From contig NC_049980.1 of the NCBI RefSeq assembly GCF_000003815.2, forward strand, positions 33,882,830-33,946,829: 64,000 bases of DNA, read 5' to 3'. Below, in pieces: positions 26,031 to 47,847 of the stretch (positions are counted from its first letter, which is position 1; every line of letters begins with the position of its first letter). The DNA is from Branchiostoma floridae (taxonomy: Eukaryota > Chordata > Leptocardii > Amphioxiformes > Branchiostomatidae). A model generated the notes under the pieces. That model worked only from the letters and a program-made list of their open reading frames with translations, was not told the DNA's origin and searched no databases. The translations under genes were made by a program, and so were the position numbers.

Positions 26031-26671
26031 GTGGGTAGAGTTAATTGATCCACCTGATACAGGCCAGGTGAGACAGGTGTGCGGATTTCAGGTGATTTAC
26101 TAACAATAACGGACAATTTAAAACAAACAAACATCTAGAATCCATTGTGCAAACCACATGTCAAAGTACGAGTTACCGGAAAAACAAATACAGGGAATAA
26201 AACTGAATAAAAAGTGTAGAAAGTAAAATGGTGATCCCAATCTAAAGTTTGGCTTTCTTAAAAATTAGAAATTCACATTGGCCAGGATATATCGATAAGT
26301 TGTGAAGTCCTGAAATGACGTGCAAATCGACCTATTTCCAACTGTGGAATTGTTCTGGGCATTGATTTGTTGTCAACTGAATAATTAATGTGACAATATC
26401 CGCTTTACATTAGCTGACCTGATGGGCGTTCAATTTTTCTCCTGCAGTTCAGTAATTATCCGCCAGAAGTGCAAGTGTCCACATCGTGGCATTGTAATGT
26501 TTGTTTATGTACTATTCAGTTTAGTTTTAGTAACGCAACTGAGATAATTGTTTTGGTTAGCAATATAATACAAAGCATTAGTAAGAAAATATCCTGCTTG
26601 TTTATAAAAATCTTGTTTAGGATTAGACGTTGAGTTTATATACTTTTATGCGCGGACAATCTTCACCAAAT

Positions 26672-26744
26672 GTCACCGTAGTGTAGTGGTTATCACGTGC
26701 GCCTCACACGCGCAAGGTCCCCGGTTCGATCCCGGGCGGTGACA
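26672..26744 (+). tRNA. tRNA-Val-CAC: tRNA-Val (anticodon CAC)
   Basis: A complete cloverleaf. The acceptor stem GTCACCG pairs with CGGTGAC, the discriminator is A, there is a GTG/CAC D-stem, and anticodon stem TGCGC/GCGCA closes loop CTCACAC with anticodon CAC at 26705-26707. The T-arm is CCCGG/CCGGG around TTCGATC. Internal Pol III A box TAGTGTAGTGG and B box GGTTCGATCCC are intact; a TTTTT terminator follows 8 bp downstream. No intron, no encoded CCA, as expected for a eukaryotic nuclear tRNA. It delivers valine at GUG codons. It lies alone between the Chd1/2 promoter and the forkhead gene. Confidence 0.97.
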
Positions 26745-27001
26745 ATGTCTTTTTGTCAGCTCTAACAATTCCTTTTTATCTGTTTTATACTTTGTTTATA
26801 AGATTTTCGTAGTAACGTAGTACGTTAATCTGGGTCATAAATTGATGTTTTTTTCTGTTGTATGAATCTTTTTTGACTGTAAGGAGGATTTGAACCCAGA
26901 ACCCCTGGGTCTTGGGCCAAGTGACGTTTAGTTACACAACACGAAATCACAGAAAGACGCTGGGAAACATAGCAGAAAAAAATCTACATGGTGTAACTTA
27001 T

Positions 27002-27243: not shown

Positions 27244-27512
27244 ATTACTTATAACACTGTAATTTTTCAAACGTCATTTTGGGGACACTTTTTCCAGATA
27301 ATCCCTCTTTCGGGACCTATTTATAGGCCCCCAACAACAACAAGTTGAACAACAAGAAAATTAAACCCTCTGTTATGAAACAAAATTGAACTTGCTGTTT
27401 TGTTAATGCATACTCTCAAGGTTTCACTTAGTCGCTAATCCCTATGTTATCTTTGCCCCACTTTTTTTGCCTCTCAGTCACAATACACATCAGCGTTGTT
27501 GCTACTTTTGTC

Positions 27513-27646
27513 TAATCTCCAAGCAGACCTTGCTGTGGCAAATGGGAAGGAGTTTAGCCGGCATAGGAGTTATTGGCCAATCAGGCTCCTCCATCTGTCG
27601 GCTAAACGCCTTCGCATTTGCCACAGCAAGATCTGCTTGGAGATTA
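27513..27646. mobile_element. CTCCAAGCAG foldback element with 9-bp target duplication
   Basis: A 134 bp element with nearly 50 bp perfect-to-good inverted arms starting TAATCTCCAAGCAGA and ending TCTGCTTGGAGATTA. It is flanked by a 9 bp direct repeat ACTTTTGTC (27504-27512 and 27647-27655). Non-coding; best-preserved member of the family in this window. Confidence 0.9.
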
Positions 27647-28929
27647 ACTTTTGTCTCCGCTTTGTTTCTGTGCTTTTTTTAGTACTCTCCAAGCAGAGGT
27701 TGAGTCGCGGGGATATAGTAGTAGTCGGGAAATTTACCGGCTCGCTCTTAATTCCCGTCGAAAACTTAGCACCTAGTTACCAAACGGTCTGAATGTGTCA
27801 AAGTAATTATATCTAAAAGGCTTGTACCGTTTCGTTCTGTAGCGACTCAACCATTTTTTTAGACCTTATTTAAGAAGAATCCAAATTGACCTTCGGGTCG
27901 CTTTTCCTGGTGTCATGAGAGAAGGGATTAATCTTGTTGTCTATGTTGCAGTTGGTGTTCTTTTTTTTTAGCGCATTTTGCCGTGTTTAATTTTTTCTAG
28001 AGGTGCGCTCTTCCTAGCCTGTGTTTACACAAGCTCTCGCTGGCTGGAGTTAATGACCCCCTCCCCGTGGCGGCAATCGTAGGGCCGGCCGCTAGGGGCG
28101 CGATTTTAGTCAGGCTACGCTCTTCCTATGGTTAACGTTACGCTATTTTAAAAAGCGTACACCTCCAGAAAAAAACATACAAAACTTTGCCAAACACACC
28201 CAAATAGCCCCAACTACAATCTGCTTGGAGATTAACAGTTTACACCATTCAAGGTCTAATAAGATGTTTGAATCCAAAATACACATTTATCCTTACACAT
28301 GCACTAATCTTTCTGGTGAATGACTTTGATGTGGCAACCAATTCTGGGAGGAAAATGACTCGGCAGGTATCATTATTAAGGCTTTCCTATCAGGATAGAA
28401 TTGCACATGCAAAACCTCTTTTTCTCAAGAATAAAGCTATAATAATTCTTCACTGTTCTGTCAGACGAGACCACAGTGCTTTACAGGAAAATGCTCGTTA
28501 ACCTAAGAAAAGTAACAGAAATGACATCAAGGTTTCCGACAGGAAGCGTCCATTACGTCTCACAGTCGCTAACAAAAAGGCACTGCGGGATAATTATCCA
28601 ATCAATTAGGCAAATCTGTCCGTCCGCGAGCGCCAATTAACACCCGATTCATGCCTGCAGAAAAGGGACGATGGCCCGGCATTGTGGAAGGCGCTGTTTC
28701 ATTATCACTTGTTTTTATATGAAAACAGAGCCGCGAAAACACCGACAAGAACACACATATGTCATAACGTATGGAGAGCAGGCACTGGCACAAAGAAGAA
28801 CGCCATCATAGCCGGACGTCTCAGGTGTACTTGCGCTCATCATTTGAAGAGCTTCTTCCTGACTTCGCGGCCGTGTTTTCACCTGGAGAAGTTGTACTTG
28901 TAGCTGGGAGTGTGTGTGAGGTGGACGCC

Positions 28930-31900
28930 ATGGCCCTACTTCACGACTGGACCGCGCCGCTAACCGTACAGGGCGCTGCCCGCGACGTCCCCTGCACGGT
29001 GCCGGGAGAGATCCAGAGGAGTGCCGAGCGCGTGGCCGGATCTCTGTCGCCGCCCTCCGAGGCAAACTCCGACGACATCGCCGAGACTCCGGACAGCACG
29101 ACTTCAGACGCGTCTTCTCCTTCTTCTTCTGAGGAAAAGGGAGAGGTAATGTATTTGAAAAGTTTTACTTTTATTCTAATTCAAGTTTTCTATTGTATGT
29201 TGTTGGCAAGCAAGGTGGATGACGATGTGGTTGAATCTGCGAACTGATATTTTTTTCTGAATCTCGGACTAAAACACATTTGACAAGAGAGTTTTCAGTT
29301 GGCCGAAAAAAGTACTCTGCCAATAAAAAAAGTACTTGTAGTAGGCCAAAATGCGTTTTGTGTAGTCTCTACCAGACTCCTCTCGTAACTGGAATAGTGA
29401 AACTTTGCCAGAAAATTTGCCAAGGGATTTAGTCGGCTCAAGGTCATAGTCCTTTTAATACCTTAGTCGACTATAGAGTCACTCGTCACGTGTGTTGACC
29501 ACGGCGAGCTCTTCTGGCATATAATTCAGTCTATTTGACCAATGACTACTATGTATGTAGTCTGATAGACGCTGCGTTTTAGGACATTATTCCAAGCGAT
29601 CCATGTTCACGATCAATATCATACATGATTCCCTTCTATCTACAAAGTTCTCGATCGTGCCTGTGTTCTACCAAGGACGTTTTTCAACTTCAAATTTTTA
29701 AACTTTGGCTCTACATCCACACATTCCACATGAACGCACAGCAAATTCCAAGCCGAACGTTCCCAAAATTGCCGCCTAGGCTCATTTAAAATGTATGTAG
29801 AAAAATGTCTTGTTTCGATTTATTTGGGGTAGGGCAAAACTGGCGTATATAATTTTGTTTTCTTTGATTTCATGTTCATGTGCTAGTCGTTTGATCCGTG
29901 GATGTGTATTGACAGATGTGTAGTGTGCGAGTGTGTTTTGACTGTACCTTTGTTAGACACTTGGCGATGTGTATTGTAACGTTTGTTCAGTGAGGCTTCA
30001 ATCACTCGGTTTGTTCAAGTCTATAAAAACAACGTTACAGAGGGGAAAACTTTGTGACTTTTCAGTCCGGAATGTTTGGACTTATCGTTGCCATCAAACG
30101 CATTTATACCAAGGTATACATTGACCGACAGCGACGTTTGATTCTATTAAACAATCTTTGATACAAATATCCAACTAACATTTCAAATGAGTACCAAGGA
30201 GGTTTTTCAACCTCCTTGTGAATACTTTGCATCGGTCTTGAGTTGTCAGGTATTGACGTTCACTTTTATTGGGGCCTGCAATTTACCATCAGCGCTATGT
30301 ATACGCTGAATTTAGATATAAAGGGGATACATGTTCTACTTCAACTAGAAAGCGATAATTTGAATTTGCATTGGTATACATTTTGTGTATCTCCATTTTT
30401 ATGCAGATATTGAAGTTGTTCATTCATTGTCCACAGGACACAGACACGAAGCCGCCATACTCGTACATCGCCCTGATCGTCATGGCGTTACGGAGCTCGC
30501 CGCTAGGGGCGCTTCCTCTCACGGGCATATACGAGTTCATCGAGCGGACGTTCCCGTACTTCCGGCGGAACAAGCGTCGGTGGCAGAACTCCATCCGGCA
30601 CAACCTGTCACTCAACGACTGCTTCGTCAAGGTGGGCAGAAGTGACTGTGACGTTTGAACGGAAATTTAGATTAAAAAAAAAAACTATTTTAAACGATAT
30701 GCCTACTCTCCAAGCAGAGGTTAGGCTCCGGCTGCTTTTTAACGTTCTTTTTTAGTCGTTTTTATCGGGCTTTTTATTTTGTATTTCATCTTGCTGTGTC
30801 AAAACCTAAGTTTGGCTGGCGTACTTCAAGAAAAATGACAAAATAGAAAGCTCGATAAAAACGACTAAAAAGCAGCCGGAGCCTAACCTCTGCTTGGAGA
30901 GTAGATATGCCTTGGTCACCGTGATTTCCAAACCGGGGCCCGGCAGCTTTCGGGAACGAAAAATATGATGCAAAATACACCAAAATACACAAAACGTAAA
31001 AAAAAAAGAGCAATGGGCATGATTTGTGTTCATTTTCGGGTATACATTTTTACTTTTAGTTTCCCCCCAAAAGCCCAGCCGGGCCTCGATTGGAAAATGC
31101 GTTTAACATATACTGAGACTTCTAGGACCATTGATGGCACGCTCTTCAAATATTTTAAGTACACAAAAATCTATTGCATACAGCGTTAAGTGGTGCAAAA
31201 TAGCGTATACTGTGTCTGTAATACATGTAGTATCCACAGCGAATGGTCAGGGTCAGTGCGTACACCTGTAAGGGTCGCCTAGACAGATTCTACACAGTCC
31301 ATAATCTCCAAGCAGATCCTACGGTAGCATAAGATAGTACAGGTATACAATTCAAAAGCTGGCAAAGAAAAGGGGTGTAGCCGGCCTAGCATTCCCTAGT
31401 CAATGCACACTTCTAGGCCGGCTAAGCCAGCATTTGTCTGCTTGGAGATGAGAAAGTTCCAACGTTTCCATGGTCCGACTGACACCACCTGTGCCCTTCC
31501 GTCCAGATCCCGCGGTCCTGCGAGCAGCCCGGTAACTTGGGTAAGGGCGGTCTGTGGGCGCTCCCGATGATCCCGACTGCGGGAACATGTTTCCTATAGG
31601 ATTACATGCATTACTGGTGTATATCATAACCGTGTAGTCCCCCCTTCCCCCTCTAGATCCCTCGGTCCTGCGAGCAGCCGGGAAAAGGCGGCCTCTGGGC
31701 GCTCCATCCCGACTGTGGGAACATGTTCGCCAAGGGAAGCTACTTACGGAGGACGGCTCGCTTCAGGTGAGGCACTTAGCTCTCCGTACAACATCTACTT
31801 TGATATTAATGATTTCATTCATTCGTTCATTCATTCGTTCATTCATTCATCCATGTATCCATCCATCCATCCATCCATCCATTCATTCATTTATTCATTC

Positions 31901-32573
31901 ATTCATCCATCCATCCATCCATCCATCCATCCATCCATCCATCCATCCAACCATCCATTTATCATTCCATTCATCCGTCCATCCAACCATTCATTCGATC
32001 ATTCGATCCATCATACATCCATTCTTTCATTTTTCTCTATTCCATTCGTCTTATAGAAGCTCCAAAACAGAAGAATCCCAGGACGGCCGGGCCCTGTACT
32101 CTCTCATGCACCCGCTCTTCAGGGGGTCTCCCTACGGCCCCACGGGTAGGCAGGGGGGTCCGGAAATCCGACCCGTGCGTTATACGGACGTTACCAGCGC
32201 AACGAGAGCGGAAGAACCTAAAAAATCCGCTCCGAGAAGCCACACATCGCCGCCGGTACCACAGAACAACTCCACCCTCCCTTGCAATCCCAGCTTGATC
32301 CCAGGGTCCTATACACGGAGCTATGGGAACGAGATGCCATCCCCATCCTCCCGTCCTACGTCATCATCTGTGGCGCAGCAATCAGGCGGCAGTAATACAC
32401 TATCGCCGCCAGGTGTCGCTCCTTACCGCGCGGTGTCGGCACCGTTCCCGCCAGTCATCCCTCCTCTCGTGCCGATGTCACCCCCCGCGAGACTTCCGTC
32501 GCCTTACCTACCGGGGTATCCCTACTGTTACGGTTACCCCTTCCTGGTACCGCTACCTTCTCTACGGCAGTGA
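28930..32573 (+). CDS. Forkhead (Fox) transcription factor
   Basis: Winged-helix transcription factor, nuclear, sequence-specific DNA binding. Four exons: 28930-29145, 30437-30631, 31657-31766, 32057-32573 (phases 0, 0, 2), total 345 aa. The forkhead domain spans about residues 76-172. It opens [14 protein letters not shown]; the recognition helix [17 protein letters not shown] is at the end of exon 2; the wing [20 protein letters not shown] is in exon 3; RRTARFR follows. An acidic/Ser-rich N-terminus precedes it, and the Pro-rich C-terminus ends in [14 protein letters not shown]. The wing most resembles FoxB/FoxAB, but I do not assign a subclass. An intron inside the domain is notable. Start chosen at 28930 (GACGCCATGG, strong context); an in-frame ATG at 28771 would add 53 residues. 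Confidence 0.93.
30704..30903. mobile_element. CTCCAAGCAG foldback element with 8-bp target duplication (Fox intron 2)
   Basis: A 200 bp element starting TACTCTCCAAGCAGAGG and ending CCTCTGCTTGGAGAGTA, with long arms (TTAGGCTCCGGCTGCTTTTT and complement). It is flanked by GATATGCC on both sides (30696-30703, 30904-30911). Its arms match 47122-47250 closely. Confidence 0.9.
30922..31108. mobile_element. Degraded Harbinger-like MITE (copy 3)
   Basis: It carries the inner arms of the 2811/39049 family (ACCGGGGCCCGGCAGC and its inverted partner) but the TIRs and TTA duplication are eroded. Confidence 0.6.
31302..31449. mobile_element. CTCCAAGCAG foldback element (Fox intron 2)
   Basis: Starts TAATCTCCAAGCAGATCCTACGG; ends TCTGCTTGGAGAT. 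Its left arm matches 45656-45811 (CTACGGTAGCATAAGATAGTA). The right arm is partly diverged, and no target duplication is recognisable. Confidence 0.75.
31507..31594 (+). pseudogene. Degenerate duplicate of forkhead exon 3 (pseudo-exon)
   Basis: A copy of the wing-coding exon lies 150 bp upstream of the real one, with its own TTCCGTCCAG acceptor. It reads IPRSCEQPG, then a 9 bp insertion (adding N, L, G), then KGGLWALP. A roughly 5 bp insertion shifts the frame there, so DCGNMF is lost. No donor equivalent to the real exon's follows. If spliced in, it would disrupt the wing of the forkhead domain. Confidence 0.85.
31811..32026. repeat. (ATTC)n/(ATCC)n tetranucleotide microsatellite
   Basis: A long ATTC/ATCC array in forkhead intron 3, ending about 30 bp before the exon 4 acceptor at 32055-32056. 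Open frames through it (IHPSIHPS-type peptides) are artefacts of the repeat. Confidence 0.95.
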
Positions 32574-33330
32574 ACATTATTCCGTCAGGTCACCTAATTC
32601 CGCCAGGTCACCTTAATCCGTCACCCTACCTACCGGGGTATCCCTACTGTTACGGGTACCCCTTCCTGGTGCCGCTACCGTCTCTACCGCGGCAGTGAAC
32701 ATAATTCCGCCAGGTCACCTAAATCCGTCACCCTACCTACCGGGGTATCCCTACTGTTACGGGTACCCATTCCTGGTGCCGCTAGGTACCGTCTCTACGG
32801 CAGTGAACATTATTCCGTCAGGTCACCTAATTCCGTCAGGTCACCTAAATCCGTCACCCTACCTACCGGGGTATCCCTACTGTTACGGTTACCCCTTCAT
32901 GGTGCCGCTACCGTCTCTACCGCGGCAGTGAACATTATTCCGTCAGGTCACCTAATTCCGCCAGGTCACCTAAATCCGTCAGTGACCCTACCTGCCCGGG
33001 TACCCCTACTGTTACGGTTACCCTTTCCTGGTGCCCCTACCGTCTCTACGGCAGTGAACTTTATTCCGTCAGGTCACCTAATTCCGTCAGGTCACCTAAT
33101 TCCGTCAGGTCACCTAATTCCGTCAGCCTACCTGCCAGGGTACCCCTACTGTTACGGTTACCCTTTCCTGGTGCCGCTACCGTCTCTACGGCAGTGAACA
33201 TTATTCCGCCAGGTCACCTAAATCCGTCAGTGACCCTACCTACCGGGGTATCCCTACTGTTACGGGTACCTTTTCCTGGTACCGCTACCTTCTCTACGGC
33301 AGTGAACATTATTCCGACAGGTCACCTAAA
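32500..33330 (+). repeat. Minisatellite amplifying the forkhead C-terminal coding end and 3' UTR
   Basis: About seven tandem units, each containing a copy of the segment encoding [19 protein letters not shown] plus stop, followed by variable numbers of TCCGTCAGGTCACCTAA motifs. The first unit is the true C-terminus (stop 32571-32573); the rest lie in the 3' UTR. Unit starts are near 32505, 32625, 32735, 32858, 32985, 33125 and 33232. Several units keep an open frame. Confidence 0.9.
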
Positions 33331-35879
33331 TCCGCCACTCCGAAAAAACAATATGTAAATATATGTAGTTTATAGGTTGCACTTCTTTGTACCATATGTT
33401 TATTTTGTTAGGTAAGAAAGCAGCTGTCCGATGAAAGTCATGAAATGTGATTAAAGCCTTCTTTCTGACATAAAATTTAGATTGTGCGCGTCAGTTATTT
33501 GGGTGGAGGAGATGATTAATTAATATAATATATGTAACGTTAAAACAGGAGCTTATTTACATAATTAATGATAAACACAATTAATACACCAGTTGTAAAG
33601 CCAAAATCATTTAGCGAAGGTATATCGTCGCGGAACTCTCGTTTTGTATGATATTTGTAGGACCAACGCAACTATGAACTTTGATGATACTAGTGTGTGA
33701 CCTGGTGACTTGTGGTTAAATCCTTGTTTTTACCTGCCATTTAAATCCGAGTAAATACGACAGTCGGATGCACGTGTGTGCGAGCGTGAGTGAGTGAGGT
33801 TACATTTATTCTCTCTGAGACTTTGGAGCGAAGCAAAACAAATATACTTCTGATGTCGCTCTGTAAATAGTCATCTCATGTCCCGGAATGGCGCCGCCCT
33901 CTGGACAATACACGGGAGCAATCAAACTGAAGTGAAAGAAACACATGATAGCAGTTATATATACACTCTTGTTTGCTTAAGTTACACAAGGGTGGAAAAT
34001 GGCGCGCTCATAAGGAAGGCACTGTTTTATGTAGTAACAGGCGACCGTTTTAATGTCAACATTTTGTATATTGGCTTGCGAATGTTACGTTTCTAACTCT
34101 TGCTTATAATGTATATTCTTCCTATTTTACTTACCCAACGCCCACCTACCCCACCAAAAAAGTCCTAGAGCCTTCTAGACTGACATTACAAAACTCACTC
34201 ACTTACAAAAACACATAACAAAATGAAAGTTGGCGTATGGTACGTGTACGTTCATTTGGGTCGTTCCAGCTATTGCAAAAGTCTTTGAAACAGGATGAAG
34301 TTGGTGCCGTGTTGTTGCGACTTATGTTTAAAAGCGATGTACTTAATTATAATAATAAATTGCCCTTTGAACACCCATTAACAAGATTGCAAATGTTTAC
34401 TTTGCCTCTGACCAAGATGCACTCACTCACACAAACACACAAGCACAGACACACGGCACACACACACGCAAGCACAGACACACACACACACACTCACACA
34501 CAGAAACACAAACACAGACTCACACTCACACACAGAAACAGACACACAAACACAGACACACACAAACACAGACACACACAAACACAGACACACAAACACA
34601 GACACACACACGGCACAGACACACACACACAGAAAAACAGACACACGCACATGGCAACTTAAATGGTGCAATACCCTCAAACATTAACATTCATTAACAT
34701 TAACATTCCAAGAAATAATGCAGACTGTATTGCAGAATGGTAAAATATTAGCCCTGTCGCCGGAATGAAAAAAAAAAAAAAACTTGCATCATTTCCATAT
34801 GCATTAAAATCTATTTTAAGAAATCTGTGCTCCTGATCCACTGAGGAAGGACGCCTATACTTTAACTCACACGTGTTAGCAAATGTGAGCGAGCCTTGTC
34901 CCACGTACTTTGTACCAACTAAGAACATATACTACAGATAACACTGTATAACTAGGCATCACACGGCCACTTATATTATGGCTGCCACTTGTGATAACAA
35001 TGGCACAGCAAACATAAATCCCTTATATTTTGCTGCAATATGTTTTTTTTTTTTTCATTTTATACATTAAAGTACCCGAAATGATGTTAGCATTACGTTG
35101 TAGCATGTTGTAAAAGTTTGGGACTGACAGAAAAAGCGGGTACCGTAGTCTAGTCACTGTGTGCTATCGGGCCCAGTCTGACAAGCATAGTCCTTTTCTC
35201 TGGCAACCTGTCTTTCTAATCGGCATTCCGAGTTATCGTCGTGAGCGAAATAACTTGTTTAAACCAACCCCGTAAAAAAATCCCGGCGCTCGCTAGAGAT
35301 CTTGGCGGCGGTACAACAGCCCTAGCCCCGTAGGGATAGCGACGACCTCACGGTGGTTTGGTAGCCAGGCTTTGGGCTAGGATATCTATAGCGATGAGTC
35401 AGCCACCAGGTCGTGCGTGAACGGACTGCATTCCTCGTGATTCCAACGTGCACGCTTTTGTTCTGGATTCTTGGTAAAACCACCGCACCTAGGTAAGGTG
35501 AGCTTTTCTCAGGTGAGGTTTCCCGCTTGTCGTCAAATGCAGCCGTCAATCACGCCGCGACCACGCCTCTTTCGAACCATTGGGGTTCTTGACCCCAAGG
35601 TTTGGTGCGCTGCTATTGGTCCGCAGCGTGTGACAACAACTCCTTATACGGGTGTTGGCGCGAATTGTGACGGGTGTGGGATTGATGACCGCATGGCCTG
35701 CCCGTGCATGTCACCGCATTTTCACATGTTCAAGAAGGAAGGCAGGACGTGCTACGCAAAACCTCCGTAGAAAACAGAGCACCGAAGGACACTTTGGCCG
35801 ATTGTAGACGCCCAAAACATCCACTTGCGCTCCAACAACAGCCCGTGCTGCAGAATCTGCTGTTTCTACGCACATCGTC
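33330..35879. other. Intergenic region between forkhead and CDKN1-like genes
   Basis: Probable forkhead 3' UTR end (ATTAAA near 33451), a CA-rich microsatellite at 34425-34650, and no supported gene. Short frames in 35.4-35.9 kb have no recognisable similarity; 35.5-35.88 kb is likely the CDKN1-like promoter and 5' UTR. Confidence 0.55.
34425..34650. repeat. (CACA)n/(CAGACA)n microsatellite
   Basis: An imperfect ACACAC/ACAGACAC array; the THTHTQ-type and CVCVCV-type open frames on both strands are artefacts. Confidence 0.95.
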
Positions 35880-36472
35880 ATGGGGGAAGTCGCGGTGAAG
35901 CGTCGACCGTCCACGTTAGGGACCGCACGCGGCCTGGCAGTCTTCGGCGAGGGGCGTTCCCCCGCCCGCCGACAGCTCTTCGGGCCCGTCGATCACGATC
36001 AGCTCCGGTCCGACTGGCACAGAGAGATCGCCCGGGTGGTGGAAGAGAAGGGGCGGGAGTGGAACTTCGACTTCGGGAGAGGGACCCCCCTGGAAGGTGC
36101 CTACACCTGGGAAAAGGTGAGCGAGTTGGAGGAGAGGTGTGCACGGGCACAGGTGAGCGCGTGTCAGGTGAACTGAGACCACCTGTATGACTCACTCACT
36201 TCCTGTAGTCTAAATGGACTTCTCAGTACACATGCGGAAGACAAGGTGTAACTGTAACGGTCAAGACCAGAACGTGCTTGAGACTTGCGTCATCGTCTGA
36301 ACCGGTCACAGAGATGCAGATATTCACACCTGAGTCGAAGTCCGAGGGAAAGTTGGCGGAGGTGTTCCGGCGTTTGCGCCAAGAAACTGGGTCGAGATTC
36401 TTGACATTCGGAGGAGACAGCATGACTTCTTCTCGGCTGCTGACCCTTCCAAGACCTGCATGGAGAATCTAA
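35880..36472 (+). CDS. CDKN1 (p21/p27/Kip) family cyclin-dependent kinase inhibitor
   Basis: Inhibitor of cyclin-CDK complexes, nuclear, cell-cycle exit. The first exon from ATG 35880 encodes the kinase-inhibitory domain: the cyclin-docking RxLFG motif at residues 31-35 (ARRQLFGPVDHDQL), a linker helix 42-60, and the CDK-binding WNFDF at 61-65 followed by PLEGAYTWEKV. Donors are available at 36116/36117 (AAG|GTGAGC) and 36152/36153 (CAG|GTGAGC), both phase 0; unspliced, the frame stops at 36176. A plausible second exon starts after TTCCTGTAG at about 36209 and stays open to a TAA at 36470-36472, but the overlapping +1 frame encodes RRRQHDFFSAADPSK ending at a TGA at about 36494, more like a Kip/Cip C-terminus. 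The LPEFYYRPP-type CDK-pocket segment is not seen. The N-terminal call is firm, the C-terminus is not. Confidence 0.8.
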
Positions 36473-37179
36473 AAAGAGACTTGGACTACCACTGAACAGC
36501 GAATGGACTGCAGTACTGCCGGTATGGAGATTGCTTGAGAAACATCATTATCGTAGAAAATGGCCTGGGGCCACCGAAAAACTGTGTCAGCATACGTGTC
36601 ACTGTCTGACAAACAGTTCATCAGTTTTTTTGTAGATCTAATATGTAGATAAGAATTTCACTCGGGGAGATATCTTATGTAAAAGGGAAATTACATATCT
36701 TGTGTAAAAAGGCAACATATCTTACGTAAAAGTGGTTCATTTGAGAATAACGTTTTACTTTCTCAGGTATTTTCACGAAGCAGCTACCTGGAAATTTCTG
36801 TCCGTTTGTAACTTATTTTAGACCGATGAAATCGTGTGCCACTGCCTATGTCATTATATTTGTGACAGATATGTATAGATTGAGCTAAAATATTTATAAC
36901 GATTACGGTTAAGGTACAAAATGTATAAGATTACGTAAGATTACGTGACCGACTGAGGGTGTACGTCATTGTTTTTATGTGCCACTGAGAGAGGTCTAGG
37001 GGCGGGGCACGGTCTTTTGTTCTGCGGGAGAAAAACATCGTTGTTTACCGCGCTGGGGCCAAGGTTTGCCGTGCGCGTGTGCTACTTTCTCACCTCGGTC
37101 ACGTCGCACGGTGACCTCTGACCCTCGGTGCGTCACGTTTCTTTGTGTGTGCGTGACGCGGAACTCGTAAACAGCGCTG

Positions 37180-37278
37180 ATCTCCAAGCAGATGTAAAGA
37201 GGCGAAATCGTAACGTTTTCCCACGGATTTCAGCGTTGAGAAACTTTACGATTAGTCTTTGTACATCTGCTTGGAGAT
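37180..37278. mobile_element. CTCCAAGCAG foldback element
   Basis: ATCTCCAAGCAGATGTAAAGA at the left, ACATCTGCTTGGAGAT at the right, about 100 bp. No clear target duplication. Confidence 0.7.
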
Positions 37279-37779
37279 TGATTAACAGTTGAACATGTAC
37301 AGTACAACCGCCCATTCAATGTTCTTGTATATAGACTAAGTGTACATATTGTTAACTTATGCGAGTGTTTCAAAGTATTAAGTTTCTTTTTATATCAACA
37401 CCTGTTTGAAATATCAGGGATAATAAAATGTATGAAAATGATATGTTGTAAATAAGAGGCTGAGTTGGAACAGAGAGATTTATGGAATAATAAAATGATA
37501 AGAAAATATAAAGGTGAGCGTTTGTCATATTTTGAATACTTGATAAGCCTACATTTTTCGTTGTCTTTCAGTGAATTATAGAGAAAATCGTGCGGATAAA
37601 AATACAGTGTATTAGATATCAAGTAAACTCAAGACTCTTAATATATGTATAATGTAGAGCACGTGTATTTTCTATAGCCCCCATTTCCACATTGGTATCA
37701 ATTCACATCGTGCAGACCATACAGGGGTCATAAAAACAGTTCTTTTGGTGAATTTTCAAGCCCCTGTTGATATTCTTCA

Positions 37780-37878
37780 ATATCCAAGCAGGCTTTACAA
37801 GGAGGGGAGGGGGGGGGGTAGCTAAAAGGAATCACAGCCAGTACTATCCTTCCTCCACCGTAACCTCTGCTTGGAGAA
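37780..37878. mobile_element. Diverged CTCCAAGCAG foldback element
   Basis: ATATCCAAGCAGGC at the left and CTCTGCTTGGAGAAT at the right with poorly matching inner arms. Confidence 0.5.
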
Positions 37879-38371
37879 TGGATTTTCCCGCCCAATAGTA
37901 CACTGTAGTCAACATCTGAAATGGGGACGCTAACAGAAAAACATCCCAACAATACAAACCACAGAATAATGGTGCCTTGTCCGAAAGGATTTCCCAGTAA
38001 GGAGAGAAAGCCAGTCCCCTGCTGAGTTGTTCTCTTGTGCGTTTTCTTCTCGGACCCGTTTTGTACCGGCCACATTCTGATACATCAGTGGGCGCAGGGC
38101 GAGGAAAAAATGAGTTATTGTGCGAGACCCACGCTTGAGGCCACGGAATAAGGACTACATGCATTTGTATGGGGCCCTAAAGTGTTTTTAAATACAGCTT
38201 GTGCAACGGAAGCGTACCTTCGGGGAGCGACAAAAAGTAGAGCAAGGCAGGACTCCACTCTAACTTGTGCCACCAATGATACCAAAATACACACTTTTAC
38301 ATTCAATTACAGTAAATTTATCACTCAATGAAGGCAGAAATGACGAACTGGAAATGTGATCATGATTTTAG

Positions 38372-38585
38372 ATACTGTAAATGCATTTAAGTTCGCGGGG
38401 ATTTAATTTCACGGTAGCGGGAAAAAGGACTTTTCGCGGTGGTTTAAGTTCGCGGTAGCACCATCCACTGTAGTCTCCTACTGCCATGGAAAAATGTTCG
38501 CAGTGGATTTTAAGTTAGCGGTGAAGCGGCCACCGCGAAAAACGCGAATATTGATCCACCGCGAAAGTTTCTGCATTTACAGTAT
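38372..38585. mobile_element. Foldback MITE with ATACTGTAAATGCA ends (copy 2)
   Basis: Termini ATACTGTAAATGCA and TGCATTTACAGTAT, with repeated AAGTTCGCGGT / ACCGCGAA internal arms. About 210 bp, non-coding; same family as 3659-3868. Confidence 0.8.
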
Positions 38586-38589
38586 TTGG

Positions 38590-39780
38590 TGTTCACCAAC
38601 ATCAGAAGGGCCACCTTGCCTTAACACTTTAAGGGCCACATGTACAACAACAAGGAATGGACTTTGCCAACAAACTTTGATACATCGTAAGTGCTGTGGG
38701 CACGTGGTACTGTCGACACGTGGTATTTCAGGTACTAGATCTATTAGCAGGTTACGAAAACGAACTAGATAAAGCCACTCTAGAAAAAAAGGGTGTCACT
38801 GTAACCAACCACCAGAGAAGGTCCAATCTGCGGTTAACCAAGGAGGTTAACCACCCAAACATAAAGTTGATACAGTGTTAGCGCTGTGGGCACGTGTTAT
38901 TGTAGACACGCGGTATTTCAGGTAGGTTAGCTATAGGAAAACACAAACACACCAGATAAAGGGACTCGAGAACAAAAGTGTGTCGGCAACAACCAGTGAA
39001 GGTCCGATCTGCGGTTGAACCACAGAAACCTAAATAAACGACCGCTTAGGCTAAGGTCACATTTCAAAACCGGGGCCCGGCCGGGATGTTTTAAGAAACG
39101 AAAAATTACAATGTATACCTAAAAATATACACAAATCATGACCATGAATCTTATTTTGACATTTTGTGTCTTTTGATGCATTTTATATAATTCTTTTTGC
39201 TCCCGAAAGCTGCCCGGCCGGACCCCGGTTTGGAAATGTGACCTAAGCCTTAAGAGATATGTATGGCGCCAAACGTCATGATAAAAAGAACCTATTTCTA
39301 AGTACTACATGACATGTACTAAAATCGTGACCATGTTCAGGACTTGAGATAGAAAAGCCTAACCGGTCTGCTGCAGTACCACGGAAAGCCACCAGAAGGT
39401 CCAAAATGAACGGACATTGTGGCGAAACAACATATAACCCAGTGAATTTATCAGTCAATGAAGGCAGGAATGAAGAACTGAATGATTTTGAATGTTAGGT
39501 GTACACTAACATCAGAAGGGCCACAACAACAACTTACGGAATAGAGTTTGTCAACAAACTGTGATGCAGCGTTAGTGTTGCGGGCACGTGTTACTGAAGA
39601 CACGCGGCATCTCAGGTAGGGTAAGAAAACACCATCGCGCCAGATAAAGGCGGTCCTTGACCAGATAACGCGACTCGAGAACAAAAGCGTGTCCACAACC
39701 GCCAGTGCGGTTAACCACCCAAAGCTAAACGACCGCTTAAGAGATACGCATGGCGCCAAACGTCATGATAACTGGTGATA
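38590..39780. repeat. Three-copy local duplication
   Basis: Blocks ACATCAGAAGGGCCAC, GCTGTGGGCACGTG, ACACGCGGTATTTCAGGTA and GATAAAG..ACTCGAGAACAAAAG occur in order at about 38598-38830, 38881-39290 and 39500-39765. The second copy carries the Harbinger-like MITE, the third does not, giving an internal empty-site comparison. Confidence 0.85.
39049..39249. mobile_element. PIF/Harbinger-like MITE (copy 2) with paralogous empty site
   Basis: 201 bp, ends GGCTAAGGTCACATTTC and GAAATGTGACCTAAGCC, flanked by TTA at 39046-39048 and 39250-39252. The paralogous locus at 39731-39745 reads GACCGCTTAAGAGAT with a single TTA, i.e. the uninterrupted target site. Confidence 0.9.
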
Positions 39781-41248
39781 AACGGAACCTATAACTACTT
39801 ACTACATGTACTCAGTGGGTAAAACGTTCAAACACCGCTACAGACGCTATCAGAAACATCTTAACCTCCTTGAACTTCTTAGCGAAGAAAAGCAGTGTCA
39901 GTTTTACTGATAATCTTTATTGCATATTCATGCCCGAGGGCTAAATGCACAAAAGGACCGCAAGTGGTATTATGGATGCAGAGGAAAAGACAGAGGATTT
40001 TAAACTAGGCTAAATGGAAGGTACTGTGTGTTACAATCGCTAATGGCTGCATCTAACATGATCTTCTCTCTTTTTGAAACACATGGAGACATATTTGCAA
40101 ATTGCGTTAATAGCATGATCGTCCGTGCATGACATCAAGTACTTAAAGTCTTGTTTTGACATTTTTTTTCATAATTATTGTCTATTTGTATAGTATTGAA
40201 TAGGGATTGGCGTTCGTATTCATATACTAAAAGTTATAATGTACAGGGACGTTAGTAATTATTCTATACTTCCAAAGCTATAACTTCTAAGTGAAACGTG
40301 CAATGAAACACGTATCAACGGTTGTTCAAAACCAGCGGACAATAGTAGTAACGGTTGCCATGAGTTGAATGAACCGATCATGACCTGTAGTAACCTCACT
40401 CAGTGGGAGGGGGCATTTTACTGTTACGACGTTTATCAACAGCTAAATTCAACGTCAGGATTCGAAAATTAGAACAGAAAGAGACAATTTTTTACACAAA
40501 GTAAAAGATTTTTAATGTAACAAGCACAATATCGCAATATTCGTGTAAATAGGAACATCATGATTTGAAAAGAACTATTAAACGTTACGTGTACGTTTCC
40601 ACCAGCCTATAAACCACTCGACCAATCAACGTCACCCCAGGTCGTTGACCTACAATTTCCCAAAGCGCGCCAGTATCAATGACATGACCTGTAGTACCCA
40701 GGTAACCCGATAGCACTTGTTGTTCTGGGCCAGACTACAAAAACATCCGTCGCGCCTTATCTTGTGGTCTCTCGCGCGGGATAATTTGCGACACAAAACG
40801 GTCCGATATAATCAATAAATCATCAATCAGCTCGACCTGATACACCGAACGACAGCGAAGAAAGAGATATAACGTCCTTGACATAACATAGCACAAATGG
40901 TGGCAAGGTGATCTTATGGTTAGGGTTGTTGAATCCTCGTGAGAAGTTCTGTAAGTTATAATAGTACAACAATTTCCGAGTGTTGTGCCCTTGGGAAAGG
41001 CACTCTGCACATATTTGCTCTCTTGACTCAGGTTAAAATTAGCCTAGCTACCTTCGGTTAAGGTCGTCCTGTTGGACGGAACGCCAGGTCCCGTGTTCGA
41101 GGACAGTCACACCTCGAGCAGGCTATTTAATAGTTTTAAGATTCCCGCCACAAGTATGAAAGAGTGTAGGGGCCCATCCCGGTATGAGTGATAGTTACTA
41201 GTTACCTGTTACTAGTATGGCAACCCTTGTTACTGGTATGTCAAGCCT

Positions 41249-41463
41249 TACTCTACAAGCAAAGGTTCGACTCCGGCTGTTTTTTTAAGTATTTTTATGC
41301 GTTTTATCGGACTTTCAATTTTGTGCAGTTTTCTTTTACATCTTCTAATATTTGGCAGGAAGGCATAAGAAAAACAGCACAAAAAGAAAGCCCGATAAAA
41401 ACGCCTATTATATATAAAAGACACGTCAAAAACAGCCGGAACCGAACCTCTGCTTGGAGAATA
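41249..41463. mobile_element. CTCCAAGCAG foldback element, diverged left end
   Basis: Left TACTCTACAAGCAAAGGTTCG, right CTCTGCTTGGAGAAT, with long inner arms (CTCCGGCTG..., CCCGATAAAAACG). Related to 30704-30903 and 47122-47250. Confidence 0.7.
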
Positions 41464-41535
41464 CCCAAACTGTGGTAAATCTCAATAGCTTAACAAACAT
41501 GTCACTTGTGTTGTGGTCCACACGCACACTTACTG

Positions 41536-43341
41536 AGGGCCCCAATGCCCTTTTGCGTAGAGCGTAATCGGCCGTTTTAATTCTACGTAGAGCGTAGACG
41601 GATCGCTTAATTCAACGTAGAGCGTAATCGATGCATTTTGCGTAGAGCGTAATTGACTCTTTTCATTCTACGTAATACGTTGTAGCTCCCCGGAATTTAC
41701 CGTAAAACGTAATGGATGAATTGTGCATATAGCGTAATCAAGCCTGCCCTAACCATCGATTGCCCTAAGTTCCGTCAAAATGCAGGAAATTGCGTTTCAG
41801 AGGGTCGAGATTTCAAAATGTCCGTGGACCTCCTTTGCGACGCCCCGCACAATCTGCGCTCACGGCGACATGGTTAAAATATGTTGGGGCGTCGCCCTCA
41901 AAATTTAAAACTGTATTTTCAATAGAAATGGCATTAAAGATTCGTCGATGAAGGTTAGCCATCCAGGTAATAAGATACGCCAAAACAGTTACTTCAGCAA
42001 AATCATATCCTTTTTTTGGCGGCATTAAGTATTGCCTAGGAAAATATGTTGGGGGGGGAGGGGAGCAAGCTGAAACTTTGTGTATTTTTGATGATGCAAA
42101 TTTCATAAAATCGAGCTAGTCTAACGGCAAAATTTACCCCTGAAAATGCGAGAAACGGCGTTTCAGAGAGTCCCGATTTCAAAATTTTGCCAGACCTCCC
42201 TGTCCCGCGTCTACGGCACAGAACAATATGTTGAGGGAGAGTCGCTCTCAAAAATCTTTTAAACAAATAGAAATTTTCGCTAAAAATGTGTCTTTCTAAC
42301 GGAATTGCAATCAAACTTAGCTTTGTCTGGCAGCAAAATTTGCCTGTCAAAACGCGGGAAAAGGTGTTTTAGAGGGTCAAGATTTCCAATTTTCCCGCGG
42401 GAGCATGCCCCCGGACCCCCCCTAGGATTAATTGTCGCGCCTCCGGCGCGACGGGTTGCGTCAAAGGCGCTACATCTGCTGCAAAATTCTGTCAGGAAAA
42501 GATCGTCCCCCAAAACAATATTTCCTGCCACCTCTGGAGGAGATGCCCCTACAGTGCTTGGTGATAACAAATTCCACTCCACGATAGTTCTGGAGAAGTA
42601 CGATTTTTTGAACACATCAATTCTAGGTTGGTAACTCTGGTACTTGAAGGCATGACTGTTTCTTGTTCTTTTTTGAGCTGGTATTAGATACTCATCAGTC
42701 GGTACGTCCACCAGTTTATTGGTCATTTTGTACATCATGAAAAGTCTGGACATTTTCCTTCTCACGGTCTTCAAGTGACATCCACTGCAGTTCTGTTTTC
42801 ATTTGTAGTCTGCAAAAAAAAGTTGCCCCTCAAATGCAGGAAATAGCGTTTCAGAGGGTCAAGATTTCAAAATTTTCCCGGGGAGTATGCCCCCGGATCC
42901 CTCTAAGATTGTCGTGCCTTCGGCGCTCAAGATGATAAAAATTCGGTCAGCAATATTGCGCCCCGCGTTAGAAATTTGCTGCCGCCGCCTCTGCCGTAGC
43001 CTCCATAGCAGGCTCTCTATGGACTTTTTTGGCACTTTTGCTGGTCATTTCTTTTTGTACTGGGTCGCTGATTGCTGGCCTCTCTCATAGCCGTCCATTC
43101 TAAAATGGGGAGCCTGCTATGGAGGCTACTCTGCCGCCGGTTACCATGAATACTTTTAACTCAACTTTTGTACCATCTTTGACACAAACGCTCAGTCGCT
43201 CGGTAATGAGTTTTGCATAACGTGTGGGAAAGCTTTTGAATTTAGCGTAGAGCGTAGAGAGGCTTCATGAATTCAGCGTAATACGTAGCCGGCCATCAGA
43301 ATTTAGCGTAGAGCGTTGTCGGGACCCCCCATTGGGGCCCT
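41536..43341. mobile_element. hAT-like non-autonomous DNA transposon, 1.8 kb
   Basis: Terminal inverted repeats AGGGCCCCAATG (41536-41547) and CATTGGGGCCCT (43330-43341), flanked by ACTTACTG (41528-41535) and CCTTACTG (43342-43349), a 7/8 match to an 8 bp target duplication. Subterminal arrays of GCGTAGAGCGTAATCG motifs sit inside both ends (41553-41735, 43243-43316). The interior holds a repeated roughly 90 bp module and a retrotransposon-like fragment. No transposase seen. 8 bp duplications with subterminal repeats fit hAT; the superfamily call is inference. Confidence 0.75.
42280..42774 (-). pseudogene. Non-LTR retrotransposon C-terminal fragment
   Basis: The open frame has the tail pattern of LINE reverse transcriptase ORFs: R..R.SRLFMMYKMTNKLV..., HAFKYQSYQPRIDVFKKSYFSRTIVEWNLLS. 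Only this tail is present; the catalytic RT region is absent. It sits inside the hAT-like element, so it was probably captured or inserted. Confidence 0.65.
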
Positions 43342-43435
43342 CCTTACTGCGTGACTGTTGTTAAGTTGTCGGATCGTACTGTCTCAACAACGGTGGTGTC
43401 GACCTGGAGTTACCTCTACGTCTTTGAAAAAAGGG

Positions 43436-43471
43436 TGACGTCACTTGTTGGTTGGAGAGGCGACGTCATTG
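43436..43471 (+). promoter_or_regulatory. Tandem CRE-like sites upstream of the PhyH-family gene
   Basis: A perfect palindromic TGACGTCA at 43436-43443 and CGACGTCA about 26 bp downstream, roughly 240-270 bp upstream of the PhyH-family start codon and just outside the hAT-like element. These are CREB/ATF consensus forms; function untested. Confidence 0.4.
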
Positions 43472-43708
43472 TTAGGCTTTTAGGTCAAGTAGCTGTTCTC
43501 TTCTGCTGCATTTCTTGTCATACTTGCGTGAGGACTCACTGCGGGACGCATCGGGACTGCACCCTTCTTTGCTCAATCGCCACCTGCGACACTACGTAGT
43601 GTTCTACAAACATGGATTTTGAACTTTGGACTTCGGTGATCCTATTCACAACTATTCACACTTCTAAACTGCAGTAGACTGGGTCTTGCGCTCCTTCTAG
43701 TCAAGACC

Positions 43709-46700
43709 ATGTCCTCAGAAGAAGTCCAGTGGCCGACTCTCCAGAGCCCTGAAGAATGGCTTCTGCAACAGCCCACGGAGAAGTGGGCAGAGCAGTTCGG
43801 TCGGGACGGATATTTGGTAGGGACGGATATTTGGTAGGGACGTATATCCTGGGTGTTGAAACCAGATATATAGCGGCTGTTTGGGGGTTTAAGACCTAGA
43901 CTTTCCTTCCGGGATACGCCAGGGTGAAAAGACGTAATTTTCTCAGACCTAAAATGAGAGGACCACCGTTTATATTAGAACAGGGCCGCTAACGTTATAT
44001 CTGTAACGATGGCAAATGGTTCGTTAAAACTAAAAATCCTAGCAATGGCCTTGGTACATTTCGACCTATGTCCCTAGCTACCTCTAATAACATTGGAAAG
44101 AGTACAAAGTCTTGAAAACACGGACCAAAATGAGCCGTACCCTTACTTCTGCTTGGAGATACACTGCCTCAGACTTACGGTTCCGATTGTAATCAATGAG
44201 CGATTCAGAAAACAATGCGTGGACCTAAACCTTACTCGCAATTCGAAGATACAAAAGTCAACAGACCTTGCAACGGACAATGATGGTTCTATCTTGAAAC
44301 GACCCCAAATATTGTATGAAACCATAGTGCTTTGAACATGACCGTGTTTCGAGTTAACGTTACCAACATCGTGTTAACTATACCAAGAAAATGTCTGAAC
44401 ACAGTTTGATAGTTGAAGACCCCAGGAAAAGTGGAGGGGTGGTGCATAACGACAAGAAGAAGAGAGAACTATCAAATTGACAATTCTAAATATATCTACA
44501 CTAAAGAGGTTCCCGACTGAAAATATATTACTTTTCCGTTCCTGCAGGTGGTCCATAATCTGATCGGTATGGAAGAGGTCAAAGTGTACAGAGGTAAGAC
44601 CGTCGTTGGTGAATAGGACGTTTATGACGACATTTAATGGTCCATTCTTTTGTATATCAACGATGTTTCACGCAGCTCTTGACAAAATACGTCTGAGGCT
44701 TGAATGGAAACTGCACCAGTTGACAATCCCTGAAGAAGTGAAGTGACGGCGGTGGTTGTGTTTCAGACGTGTACCGCCGGATGGTGCAGGGAGAAATTGA
44801 CACGAGCATACATCGGCACGATCTGGGGAACCAAGGTAAATCGTCATATGTCATGATAGTAGAACTTTCATGTTTGTTATTAATAATTTTCTTTCTATGT
44901 TACTTGCAATTAGCAAGACTGTGCAATAACCTTAGTAAACAGCGACTAAGGTAGGGTAAGTCTAAGAAGGAAGGCTGGGGAACAGGTGAAAGGGTTTCGT
45001 TGCAGTCATCTCTATTGCCATTTATAAATGAAACAAATACATTGAACTGTACCTGTATCGTATAGTAGGCGTAACAAATGACCAGCTGTAACGTTAACGT
45101 CTGTCTGTGACACAAACCTAGGTTTTGACTAATGCAATGTGCGAACCGTGATACTAAAAGCACATATGTAAATATACTTTTATGTTGACGTGTAAGTCCT
45201 GACTAAAGCCACATCTTACGCGTTTTTCGTTCTATTCTGATACAGACGAGAGGAAACGGCCGAATGTGGAGAATATTTGCCAAATCATGTGGCCGAGTAC
45301 TTACGTACAGAACCTGGACAGGGTAAGTCTGCTAAAGAATCCAACCAAGGAACGTGTTTTCTCTTTAATTATTTCTTATACTTGTATTTTTAATACATGT
45401 ATTCTTAATACATCTTATACATGTATTTCTAATGCATATATGTATAATACACTTTGGCGGCACAGTCAAGTCATCGACTTATTTTCATGGTTTACGCACA
45501 TGACATGCTTCGGACTACTTTTGACAGGGCCCCATTCACGCACGCGCAGAAGCCATCGCACGTCTACTGTTGGGAGAGGACGTCGCGTTTGACTTTGACA
45601 TGCTGATCTACAAGGTACGTCATAGGGGAGGGGGTGATAAAAGTCTTTATATTTGTAATCTCCAAGTAGATCCTACGGTGCCATAAGATAGTATCAAATC
45701 TGGCCAAGGAGCATAGCCGACCAAAGAGAGTCAGACGGGCACCGGAGTAGCAAACACTGCCAGCTTTTGATACTATCTTGCTATGCTACCGTAGGATCTG
45801 CTTGGAGATCATATATTTGTACATAGTTGGAAAGTGTTGAGGAATAAGTTATTCTTACACGTTTATCGTATACATTTTGAAACAAAAGATGAGGAAACAT
45901 TCGCAAATACTTTCACTTCAAGCTTGGCTGAGGAAAGTTGCCAGAAAAGTAGAACGCCTCTCATCTGTAAGATTCTCTTGACGGCAATCGAATCATAAAA
46001 CAAAGGCCCGAGAGAATGGTTGCCTTTTTAAGTGAAACTTCAAAATTTCTACAAAGATTTGACAGAAAGTTATAAGAGTCATTCCTTTAATCAATCTACT
46101 AACTGAGTGCACCGAAGTTTCTCTGCCTTTTTAACGTCGTTTATTTCCCTTCGTATTCTTTTTTACTCCACTGGCGTCGATGTCCTACTGATGTACCACA
46201 CGACCTTCCTGTTTCCAGGCTCCACAGGCGAACTCTGTCTCATTTCCTGTCCAATATCATTCTTCTTTACTCCCTTCATGCCAGTGTTGTACTGTTTCCA
46301 GGCGCCCCAGACGAACACCTGCACCCCCTGGCACCAGGACGAGGCTTACTGGCCCGACATGCCCGACAAACGCGCCCTATCCTGTTGGGTGAGAACAGTA
46401 CATAATTTATGAACGGTAAAGAATAGGGCGGTGACAAAACCTTACACCTCTAGCATATTAGAGCGTTCCTTCTTTAAGAAAACGACGAGGTATGACGTTA
46501 ATCAATTTCTGTTAGTCTCTTTTTTAGGCCCTCTTAAAGTATCATTTTCGTGTATTTGGCGTACTGGTCTGCGTTCCGCCCTTCTCCAGTTTTTACTGTG
46601 TCGTTTTTACTTTTCTGGGAATCCTTCCCCCGCAGGTTGCCCTTGACGACGCGACCGTTGATAACGGGTGCATGTGGTTCGTTCCCGGGTCTCACCTGCA

Positions 46701-47847
46701 GCCGGTCCGGCCGCATCGGGCCGCTAAGGAGGGCGTGCACGTGCTCATGACGGACCACTGCTCAGAGGTAACACGCACATACACATGCACACACGTGCAC
46801 ACACACACACACACACTAAACACACACACACATACACACTCAGACACACACACACACACTTACAAGCACACACACAAACAGACAGAGAGAGAGAGAGAGA
46901 CGACGGGGGAGAGACAGATAGATACACACAACCCATCCTTGCTTTTAAAAAATTCTGTGATCCATAAAAGATGCTGAAACCACAACCTACTTATCTCGGT
47001 GGTATCTGATAGATGTACACACGGCTACCATAGTCAGTACACTCATCTGTGTAGGGAGCGGCACGCCTACATCCTCAACACACACGCACACACACACACA
47101 CACACTAACATAGTCCGTACATACTCTCCAAGCAGAGGTTAGGCTCCGGCTGGACACAGTAAGAAAAAATGACAAAATAGAAAGCCCGATAGAAACGACT
47201 AAAAAAAAACGTTAAAAAACAGCCGGAGCCTAACCTCTGCTTGGAGAGTAGTCCGTACACCCTTCTGTACGTCCAGGATGAGGGGAGCGCCATGCCCATC
47301 CCGGCGGGGTCCTGTACCCTGCACCACGGGCGGACTCTGCACTACACCCGCGGCAACAGCACGGGGCGGGAGCGGCGCGCCTACATCGTCGCCTACAGGC
47401 CTGGCGACATGGTGCGCTGGGAGCGCGAACACGGGTTCGACCACGGCAAGAAGGTGGGTGGTGAGAGATAAATGATGAAGTACTAGTATTCACGGCAAAA
47501 TAGAATAAAGAAAATTATATCTTATTGTAGATCTTAAATGCAATGGACAAAAGAACATAGTCCCATAACTAAAACTGGGACGTGGTGACGGCGAAAATTT
47601 AATAGACAGGGTGATTGACCCGAAGCATGTCACGTGACCTGAATGGAAGTGTGACGCCAGCAAAGGGTCAAAGGTGCGTGACAGTTGGTATCGGCCCCCG
47701 TGTCGGGTTGATCAATGAGCCATTATCTAGCTTATAATGCAAAGGAACTTATCTTAATAAAAACACATTGTGACACTTAACAAAGTTTGAAATCTCTTTC
47801 AGGGAATCAAGAAGGTTCTTAAACTTGACCAGAAAGAGGACAGCTGA
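43709..47847 (+). CDS. Phytanoyl-CoA dioxygenase (PhyH) family Fe(II)/2-oxoglutarate oxygenase
   Basis: Non-haem iron, 2-oxoglutarate-dependent oxygenase fold; the substrate is not predictable. Nine exons: 43709-43816, 44548-44593, 44767-44835, 45246-45322, 45528-45614, 46302-46388, 46636-46767, 47277-47453, 47803-47847, all GT/AG with consistent phase; 275 aa, a usual family length. The Fe-binding HxD is H140-D142 (TPWHQDEAYW). VALDDATVDNGCMWFVPGSH forms the conserved core strand. The distal His is likely H224 and the 2OG-binding Arg R235 (LHYTRGNSTGRERRA, spacing 11 as in PHYH). No signal peptide or PTS1 tripeptide (ends KEDS), so cytosolic location is the default. It differs from the PHYHD1 pattern and resembles bacterial-type PhyH proteins more. 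Foldback elements sit in introns 5 and 7. Confidence 0.92.
43805..43839 (+). repeat. Duplicated splice donor of PhyH-family exon 1
   Basis: The 17 bp stretch GACGGATATTTGGTAGG occurs twice in tandem, giving two identical donors TTG|GTAGGG 17 bp apart (GT at 43817 and about 43834). The first keeps phase and yields GYLVVHNLIG; the second would add 17 nt and shift the frame. Confidence 0.8.
45656..45811. mobile_element. CTCCAAGCAG foldback element with 8-bp target duplication (PhyH intron 5)
   Basis: 156 bp, starts TAATCTCCAAGTAGATCC and ends GGATCTGCTTGGAGATCA, flanked by TATATTTG at 45648-45655 and 45812-45819. Arms match 31302-31449. Confidence 0.88.
46770..46900. repeat. (CA)n/(GA)n microsatellite in PhyH intron 7
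   Basis: A CACACA-rich run followed by GAGAGAGA, starting 3 bp after the donor of exon 46636-46767. A second CA run is at 47083-47104. Confidence 0.95.
47122..47250. mobile_element. CTCCAAGCAG foldback element next to PhyH exon 8
   Basis: 129 bp, TACTCTCCAAGCAGAGG to CCTCTGCTTGGAGAGTA, flanked by 9 bp GTCCGTACA duplications (47113-47121, 47251-47259). The next exon begins at 47277, only 26 bp past the element. Confidence 0.92.

Follow-up and report, generated by a model that had tools for sequence, protein, structure and literature searches.

Palindromic elements sharing a 15-bp terminal tip in a 64-kb window, probably several families of non-autonomous MITEs

Features of the locus and the tip-bearing elements

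The window, by which we mean the whole 64-kb stretch of DNA analysed and the single source of all element comparisons reported here, contains several regions recognized by Pfam: a chromodomain piece (Chromo) at 1372-1752, a forkhead exon at 30437-30658, a cyclin-dependent kinase inhibitor domain (CDI) near 36.0 kb, and PhyH matches at 46.6 and 47.3 kb. Positions 26671-26745 correspond to a tRNA-Val (CAC) gene or a tRNA-derived element, and 100 N in a row at 18758-18857 are probably an assembly gap. On the 3' side of the forkhead exon, two alike stretches of the form GATCCC.CGGTCCTGCGAGCAGCC.. were noticed by eye (31506-31590 and 31655-31740), perhaps an exon and its degraded copy; the tandem repeats at 32495-33334, with periods of about 107-233 bp, take in the end of an open frame 3' of the same exon. 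Short repeats containing CGTAGAGCGTA lie 1.6 kb apart at 41556-41630 and 43237-43316.

The tip TAMTCTCCAAGCAGA, allowing at most two mismatches, occurs 19 times in the window (9 exact sites, 7 with one mismatch and 3 with two), and all 19 sites fall within 27513-47884, the rest of the 64-kb window being free of the tip at this threshold. The left tip of E9, which has three mismatches, raises the total to 20. The chance expectation is about 0.1 site per window, ten Markov-1 sequences of 64 kb having yielded one site altogether; similarly, the core CTCCAAGCAGA with at most one mismatch has 21 matches versus 1.17 expected. The tips resolve into eight tip-paired elements of 103-215 bp, one element (E8) that has lost its right tip, and three solitary tips (Table 1). 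Seven palindromes sharing the tip had been listed in the original prediction, and each was found at the place given or a few bases from it; E8 and E9 are two elements beyond these seven. The constant tip, previously taken to be 13 bp long, measures 15 bp, or 19 bp with GGTT, and is of two kinds, TAATCTCCAAGCAGA and TACTCTCCAAGCAGAGGTT. A search for partner arms of the solitary tips revealed none upstream of S28220 beyond the tip of E1 (compared with 50 letter shuffles), and, apart from the tip itself, none above chance for S44148 and S47870 (50 letter shuffles each).

Table 1. Coordinates of tip-bearing elements, solitary tips and flanking duplications in the window
Feature	Position	Strand	Description
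E1	27513..27646	.	134 bp, palindromic; arm TCTTGCTGTGGCAAATG..GTTTAGCCGGC
E1 TSD ACTTTTGTC	27504-27512 + 27647-27655		exact, 9 bp
E8	27683..27853	.	left tip TACTCTCCAAGCAGAGGTT; 11-nt inner inverted repeat GGTTGAGTCGC; right tip missing
E8 probable TSD TTTTTTTAG	27674-27682 + 27854-27862		9 bp, in T-run
Solitary tip S28220	28220..28234	-	exact
E2	30704..30903	.	200 bp; GGTTAGGCTCCGGCTG arms; TSD GATATGCC; downstream of forkhead exon
E3	31302..31451	.	150 bp, asymmetric; left arm TCCTACGGTAGCATAAG.. + core, right arm core only
E7	37178..37280	.	103 bp; TGTAAAGAGGCG-type arms
E9	37778..37880	.	103 bp, degraded; left tip A kind, right tip GGTT kind
E6	41249..41463	.	215 bp; diverged GGCTCCGG-type family member
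Solitary tip S44148	44148..44162	-	2 mismatches
E4	45656..45811	.	156 bp; TCCTACGGTAGCATAAG-type arms + core; TSD TATATTTG; 825 bp before first PhyH match
E5	47122..47250	.	129 bp; GGCTCCGG-type; inner left arm deleted; TSD GTCCGTACA; between both PhyH matches
Solitary tip S47870	47870..47884	+	1 mismatch; then TGTTAGGGAGG

Exact target site duplications (TSDs) at symmetrical ends flank four of the nine elements (ACTTTTGTC and GTCCGTACA, 9 bp each; GATATGCC and TATATTTG, 8 bp each), which confirms the four duplications of 9, 8, 8 and 9 bp reported earlier. Given the random duplication rate of 0.000355 per pair, determined in the window for spacings of 90-220 bp, the probability of four such duplications among nine elements is ~2e-12. 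The TSDs of E2 and E4 can also be read as at least 9 bp, when the duplication is taken to include the initial bases of the left tip. A fifth TSD is probable in E8, which has kept its inner repeat despite the missing right tip: TTTTTTTAG occurs three times on the given strand of the window, and two of these occurrences flank the element. No recognizable TSD was found at the ends of E3 and E6, and E7 has none in register (a 6/7 match exists out of register), while the flanks of E9 (GATATTCTT and GATTTTCCC) agree at 6 of 9 positions. Near E5, the right duplication ends 15 bp before the AG at 47275-47276, a possible splice acceptor for a PhyH exon; the downstream PhyH match in Pfam starts at 47289.

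Palindromic structure and relations among the arms

When the eight tip-paired elements are folded as single-stranded DNA, all but E9 greatly exceed their shuffled counterparts in stability, with z-scores from -6.7 to -17.3. The energies of E1 and E2 are -57.8 kcal/mol (z -15.6) and -77.8 kcal/mol (z -17.3), and the z-scores of the others are -6.7 (E3), -9.1 (E4), -12.4 (E5), -11.6 (E6), and -8.4 (E7); for the degraded E9 the z-score is -1.5, and 14 of 200 shuffles were equally good. The possession of long inverted arms does not set this tip apart, since inverted pairs (36 in all, with arms of at least 20 nt and at most 400 bp apart) are spread throughout the window, and many of the 25 longest of the 36 carry no such tip (for example, 63113-63396, 55659-55870, 54934-55164, and 51459-51609). 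The inverted pairs at 2810-3010 and 39048-39250, likewise lacking this tip, are related to each other and look like copies of another palindromic element, with ends AGGYTAAGGTCACATTTC and GAAATGTGACCTAAGCCT and with CTT before and TA after each copy. In contrast to the scattered inverted pairs, the 12 tip-family insertions (12/12) are clustered within 20.4 of the 64 kb, the probability of which under uniformity, calculated post hoc, is ~3e-5.

In E2 and E5, the left and right arms pair without a mismatch over 38 and 31 nt, respectively. This complementarity would agree with the explanation put forward originally, in which a constant tip repeatedly captures unrelated arms, and the identity of the two arms arises by homogenisation or by hairpin-primed replication; in light of the arm comparisons below, we consider that explanation very improbable. 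Some of the arms are related to one another. E2 and E5 belong to one family (79 nt at 95% identity), and E6, 76-86% identical to their long arms, is a more diverged member. The TCCTACGGTAGCATAAG arm is common to E3 and E4 (the alignment of E3-left with E4-right scores 49). Furthermore, E1-left and E3-left can be aligned with a single gap and 25 matching columns out of 31 (TGGCAAA..TAGCCGGC.TAG), and the score of 30 is the highest among 3158 windows (mean 12.6, sd 2.3) and was reached by none of 300 shuffles, the next-best, unrelated window scoring 26. In the same register, E1-right scores 23 with E3-left and 21 with E4-left, where unrelated windows of the scan score up to 22. Thus E1, E3, and E4 probably form a single group, its members differing by gain or loss of the segment that separates the tip from the core; the evidence for their apparent shared core comes mainly from one alignment. 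The earlier description of the inner arms as unrelated is therefore doubtful for the elements at 27513, 31302, and 45656, which apparently share this core.

The arms of E7 and E8 bear no convincing relation to other arms in the window. Their interiors, for which the window offers no clear relative, are the ones that capture of new arms would explain, and replacement of a whole interior is conceivable in these two cases. A resemblance between the loop of E2 and the arms of E1 (TCTTGCTGTG[GT]CAAA), scoring 25 with E1-right and 23 with E1-left, is only suggestive, as unrelated windows score up to 26.

Tip kind and adjoining arm bases tend to vary together. Where GGTT follows the tip, as it does in eight cases, position 3 is always C or T; among the 12 other tips it is A in 11, and only S47870, with TGTT next to it, departs from this. 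The association between position 3 and the next four bases, which was noticed post hoc, has a Fisher P of 7e-5 for 20 tips and 0.015 for 11 elements (a count that leaves out E9, whose two tips differ), and is not significant for 7 families (P 0.14). Such a link is expected for separate lineages and not for freely swapped arms; it is thus weak evidence, at the level of tips and elements though not of families, against free swapping and against repeated capture of arms by a constant tip.

The two outer arms of E3 are unlike each other. In E3-right the core sits directly behind the tip and the CTACGG segment is absent, so that the CTACGG arm is present on the left side only. An unlike pair of arms without a TSD is reminiscent of chimeric copies of the Drosophila foldback element Galileo, as described in PMC3573991, and suggests a second alternative, in which a double-strand break in one arm is mended with the opposite arm, or a different copy, as template, with arms lengthening by recruitment of internal sequence and chimeras being formed. 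The mixed tips of E9 could be accounted for in the same way. Since the inner arms of E3 still pair with each other (12/12 at TAGCCGGCCTAG), however, one-sided loss suffices to explain its asymmetry. Together with the divergence of arms in E6 and E4 described below, this makes a Galileo-like origin of the arms unlikely.

Divergence of arms within and between elements

Both alternatives can be confronted with the divergence between the left and right arms of an element relative to that between elements, a comparison proposed along with the original prediction. Over their first 31 nt, E2 and E5 have a single arm sequence: left and right arms agree exactly, and so do the arms of one element with those of the other. 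Over the same 31 positions, the arms of E6 have 5 differences from each other versus 4 and 3 from the arms of E2 (30704) and E5 (47122), and of the differing sites in E6 five are confined to a single arm whereas one occurs in both, contrary to what a Galileo-like repair of one arm from the other would predict. Over longer stretches, identity is 92% between E2-left and E2-right, 91% between E2-left and E5-right, and 96% between E2-right and E5-right, compared with 71% between E6-left and E6-right and 86% between E6-left and E5-right. Similarly, the right arm of E4 resembles E3-left more than its own partner, E4-left, with which it scores 41. In E6 and E4, divergence within the element is thus not lower than divergence between elements, the outcome that had been named beforehand as the refutation of arm homogenisation.

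A different pattern is observed in E1, the arms of which are 92% alike versus 63-77% to E3-left and E4, and in E3, the arms of which are 90% alike over 40 aligned columns versus 72-81% to E4, although the placement of gaps in the latter alignment is uncertain. In addition, three elements have between them four features that are present in both arms and absent from relatives: position 20 and a GTGC stretch in E6, the C after CCGGCTG in E2, and the lack of 12 nt relative to E3-left in E4. These concordant features, together with the closeness of the arms within E1 and E3, are what Galileo-like repair would be expected to leave, and arm conversion at a low rate is compatible with groups of three elements each. 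Both observations are also explained by subfamily differences. The sequences of E6 and E4 hence speak against homogenisation, whereas E1 and E3 leave the question undecided; neither capture followed by homogenisation nor hairpin replication, as first suggested, is supported.

Interpretation, candidate transposases and known systems

Miniature inverted-repeat transposable elements (MITEs) are short, encode no transposase, have terminal inverted repeats and target duplications, and may comprise several families sharing their ends; arms that form a long palindrome are also known from other MITEs. The tip-bearing elements in the window are likewise short, with terminal inverted repeats and TSDs of narrow length, and have no capacity to code for a transposase. 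No transposase domain was detected by Pfam at E<=0.1 in six frames of 26001-50002, where the only matches were CDI, Forkhead, and PhyH. Among the open reading frames tried beyond this region (1372-1752, 56060-56911, 57219-57563, and 60117-60548), only the first had a match (Chromo), and the frame at 49237-50397, which spans the edge of the scan, had none in Pfam.

In our opinion, the elements are very probably non-autonomous MITEs, constituting several mostly palindromic families and decayed copies that were moved in trans by a transposase encoded elsewhere. A cut-and-paste enzyme of this kind would recognize the 15-bp tip and make staggered cuts 8-9 bp apart, the corresponding duplications being observed directly. 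If the tip alone is needed, the interior would be free for deletion, extension, and divergence; each successful interior would be amplified as a family, the copies decaying independently afterwards. The differences between arms would then be due to the separate founding of families and to sequence gained or lost in the stretch that joins tip and core, and not to continuing exchange of arms. Several observations fit less well with this interpretation as MITE families, namely the lack of a duplication in E3 and E6 and of one in register in E7, the imperfect flanks of E9 and the T-run at the flanks of E8, the unmatched arms of E7 and E8, the mixed tips of E9, the solitary tip S47870 that breaks the rule relating tip and arm, the four features concordant between arms, and the greater closeness of arms within E1 and E3. 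The gains and losses next to the tip (E1 and E3-right), as well as the missing tip of E8, which has kept its inner repeat and probable TSD, might also be explained if the transposase repeatedly re-joined its minimal 15-bp end to new inner positions of one and the same core, so that re-tipping and not mutation founded families with new subterminal arms, but the chance that this is the correct account seems very slight.

Mobilisation by a single transposase had been proposed, and the shared end and the 8-9 bp TSDs support this to the extent of a cut-and-paste transposase or a small number of related ones. Target duplications are 8 bp only in the hAT superfamily and 8-9 bp in Merlin, and their range in the P superfamily reaches 8 bp. 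In this small sample, TSDs of 9 bp (E1 and E5) occur beside TSDs of 8 bp (E2 and E4), and therefore a strict 8-bp hAT enzyme, one of three types originally suggested, is less likely. The 9-bp duplications likewise exceed the 7-8 bp of the P superfamily and Galileo and speak against a 7-bp Galileo-like enzyme. The two other suggested types, Merlin-like (8-9 bp) and Mutator-like (MULE, including Phantom, 8-10 bp), agree with the observed lengths, though not specifically, and remain candidates.

If correct, this interpretation merely extends the known repeats of a single animal genome by some MITE families, and it illustrates how arms of palindromic elements can seem to have been swapped when sequence was gained or lost next to an end that stays constant; the tip would be a useful handle for tracing the autonomous transposon. 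An exact 27-base pattern had no matches in viral and prokaryote contig collections, which says little about an animal element. Searches of literature text for 13-mers of the tip returned only papers with titles on other subjects, and further literature searches, judged by titles and the beginnings of abstracts, gave no description of this tip family among the papers listed.

From MITEs in general, the tip-bearing elements do not clearly differ, matching them in length (103-215 bp), terminal inverted repeats, TSDs, and lack of a transposase domain. LanceletTn-2 of amphioxus, named in PMC5802833, can be likened to them by description and not by sequence: it is a MITE located in an intron of an animal gene, and the window may itself come from a lancelet. 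Tm1 of root-knot nematodes, a Mutator/Foldback family, has TSDs of 8-10 bp, mostly 9 bp, and MITE-like members beside members coding for a transposase, according to PMC3169594; the TSD range and the MITE-like members are the points of likeness. The repeats of Tm1, as described there, consist largely of tandem units of 13-15 bp and have asymmetric 7-bp end motifs, whereas the tip analysed here is symmetrical and no tandem units of 13-15 bp were seen. For Galileo, a member of the P superfamily, lengthening of inverted repeats and formation of chimeras have been published; PMC3573991 describes non-autonomous copies made up mostly of inverted repeats of varying length, a division into subfamilies, and some copies whose two repeats differ and whose flanks lack a matching duplication, in all of which Galileo resembles the present elements. 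It differs (PMC3573991) in its 7-bp TSDs, in repeats of hundreds of bp, and in having known transposase-coding copies. The published cases of Tm1 and Galileo indicate that this kind of structure is already known.
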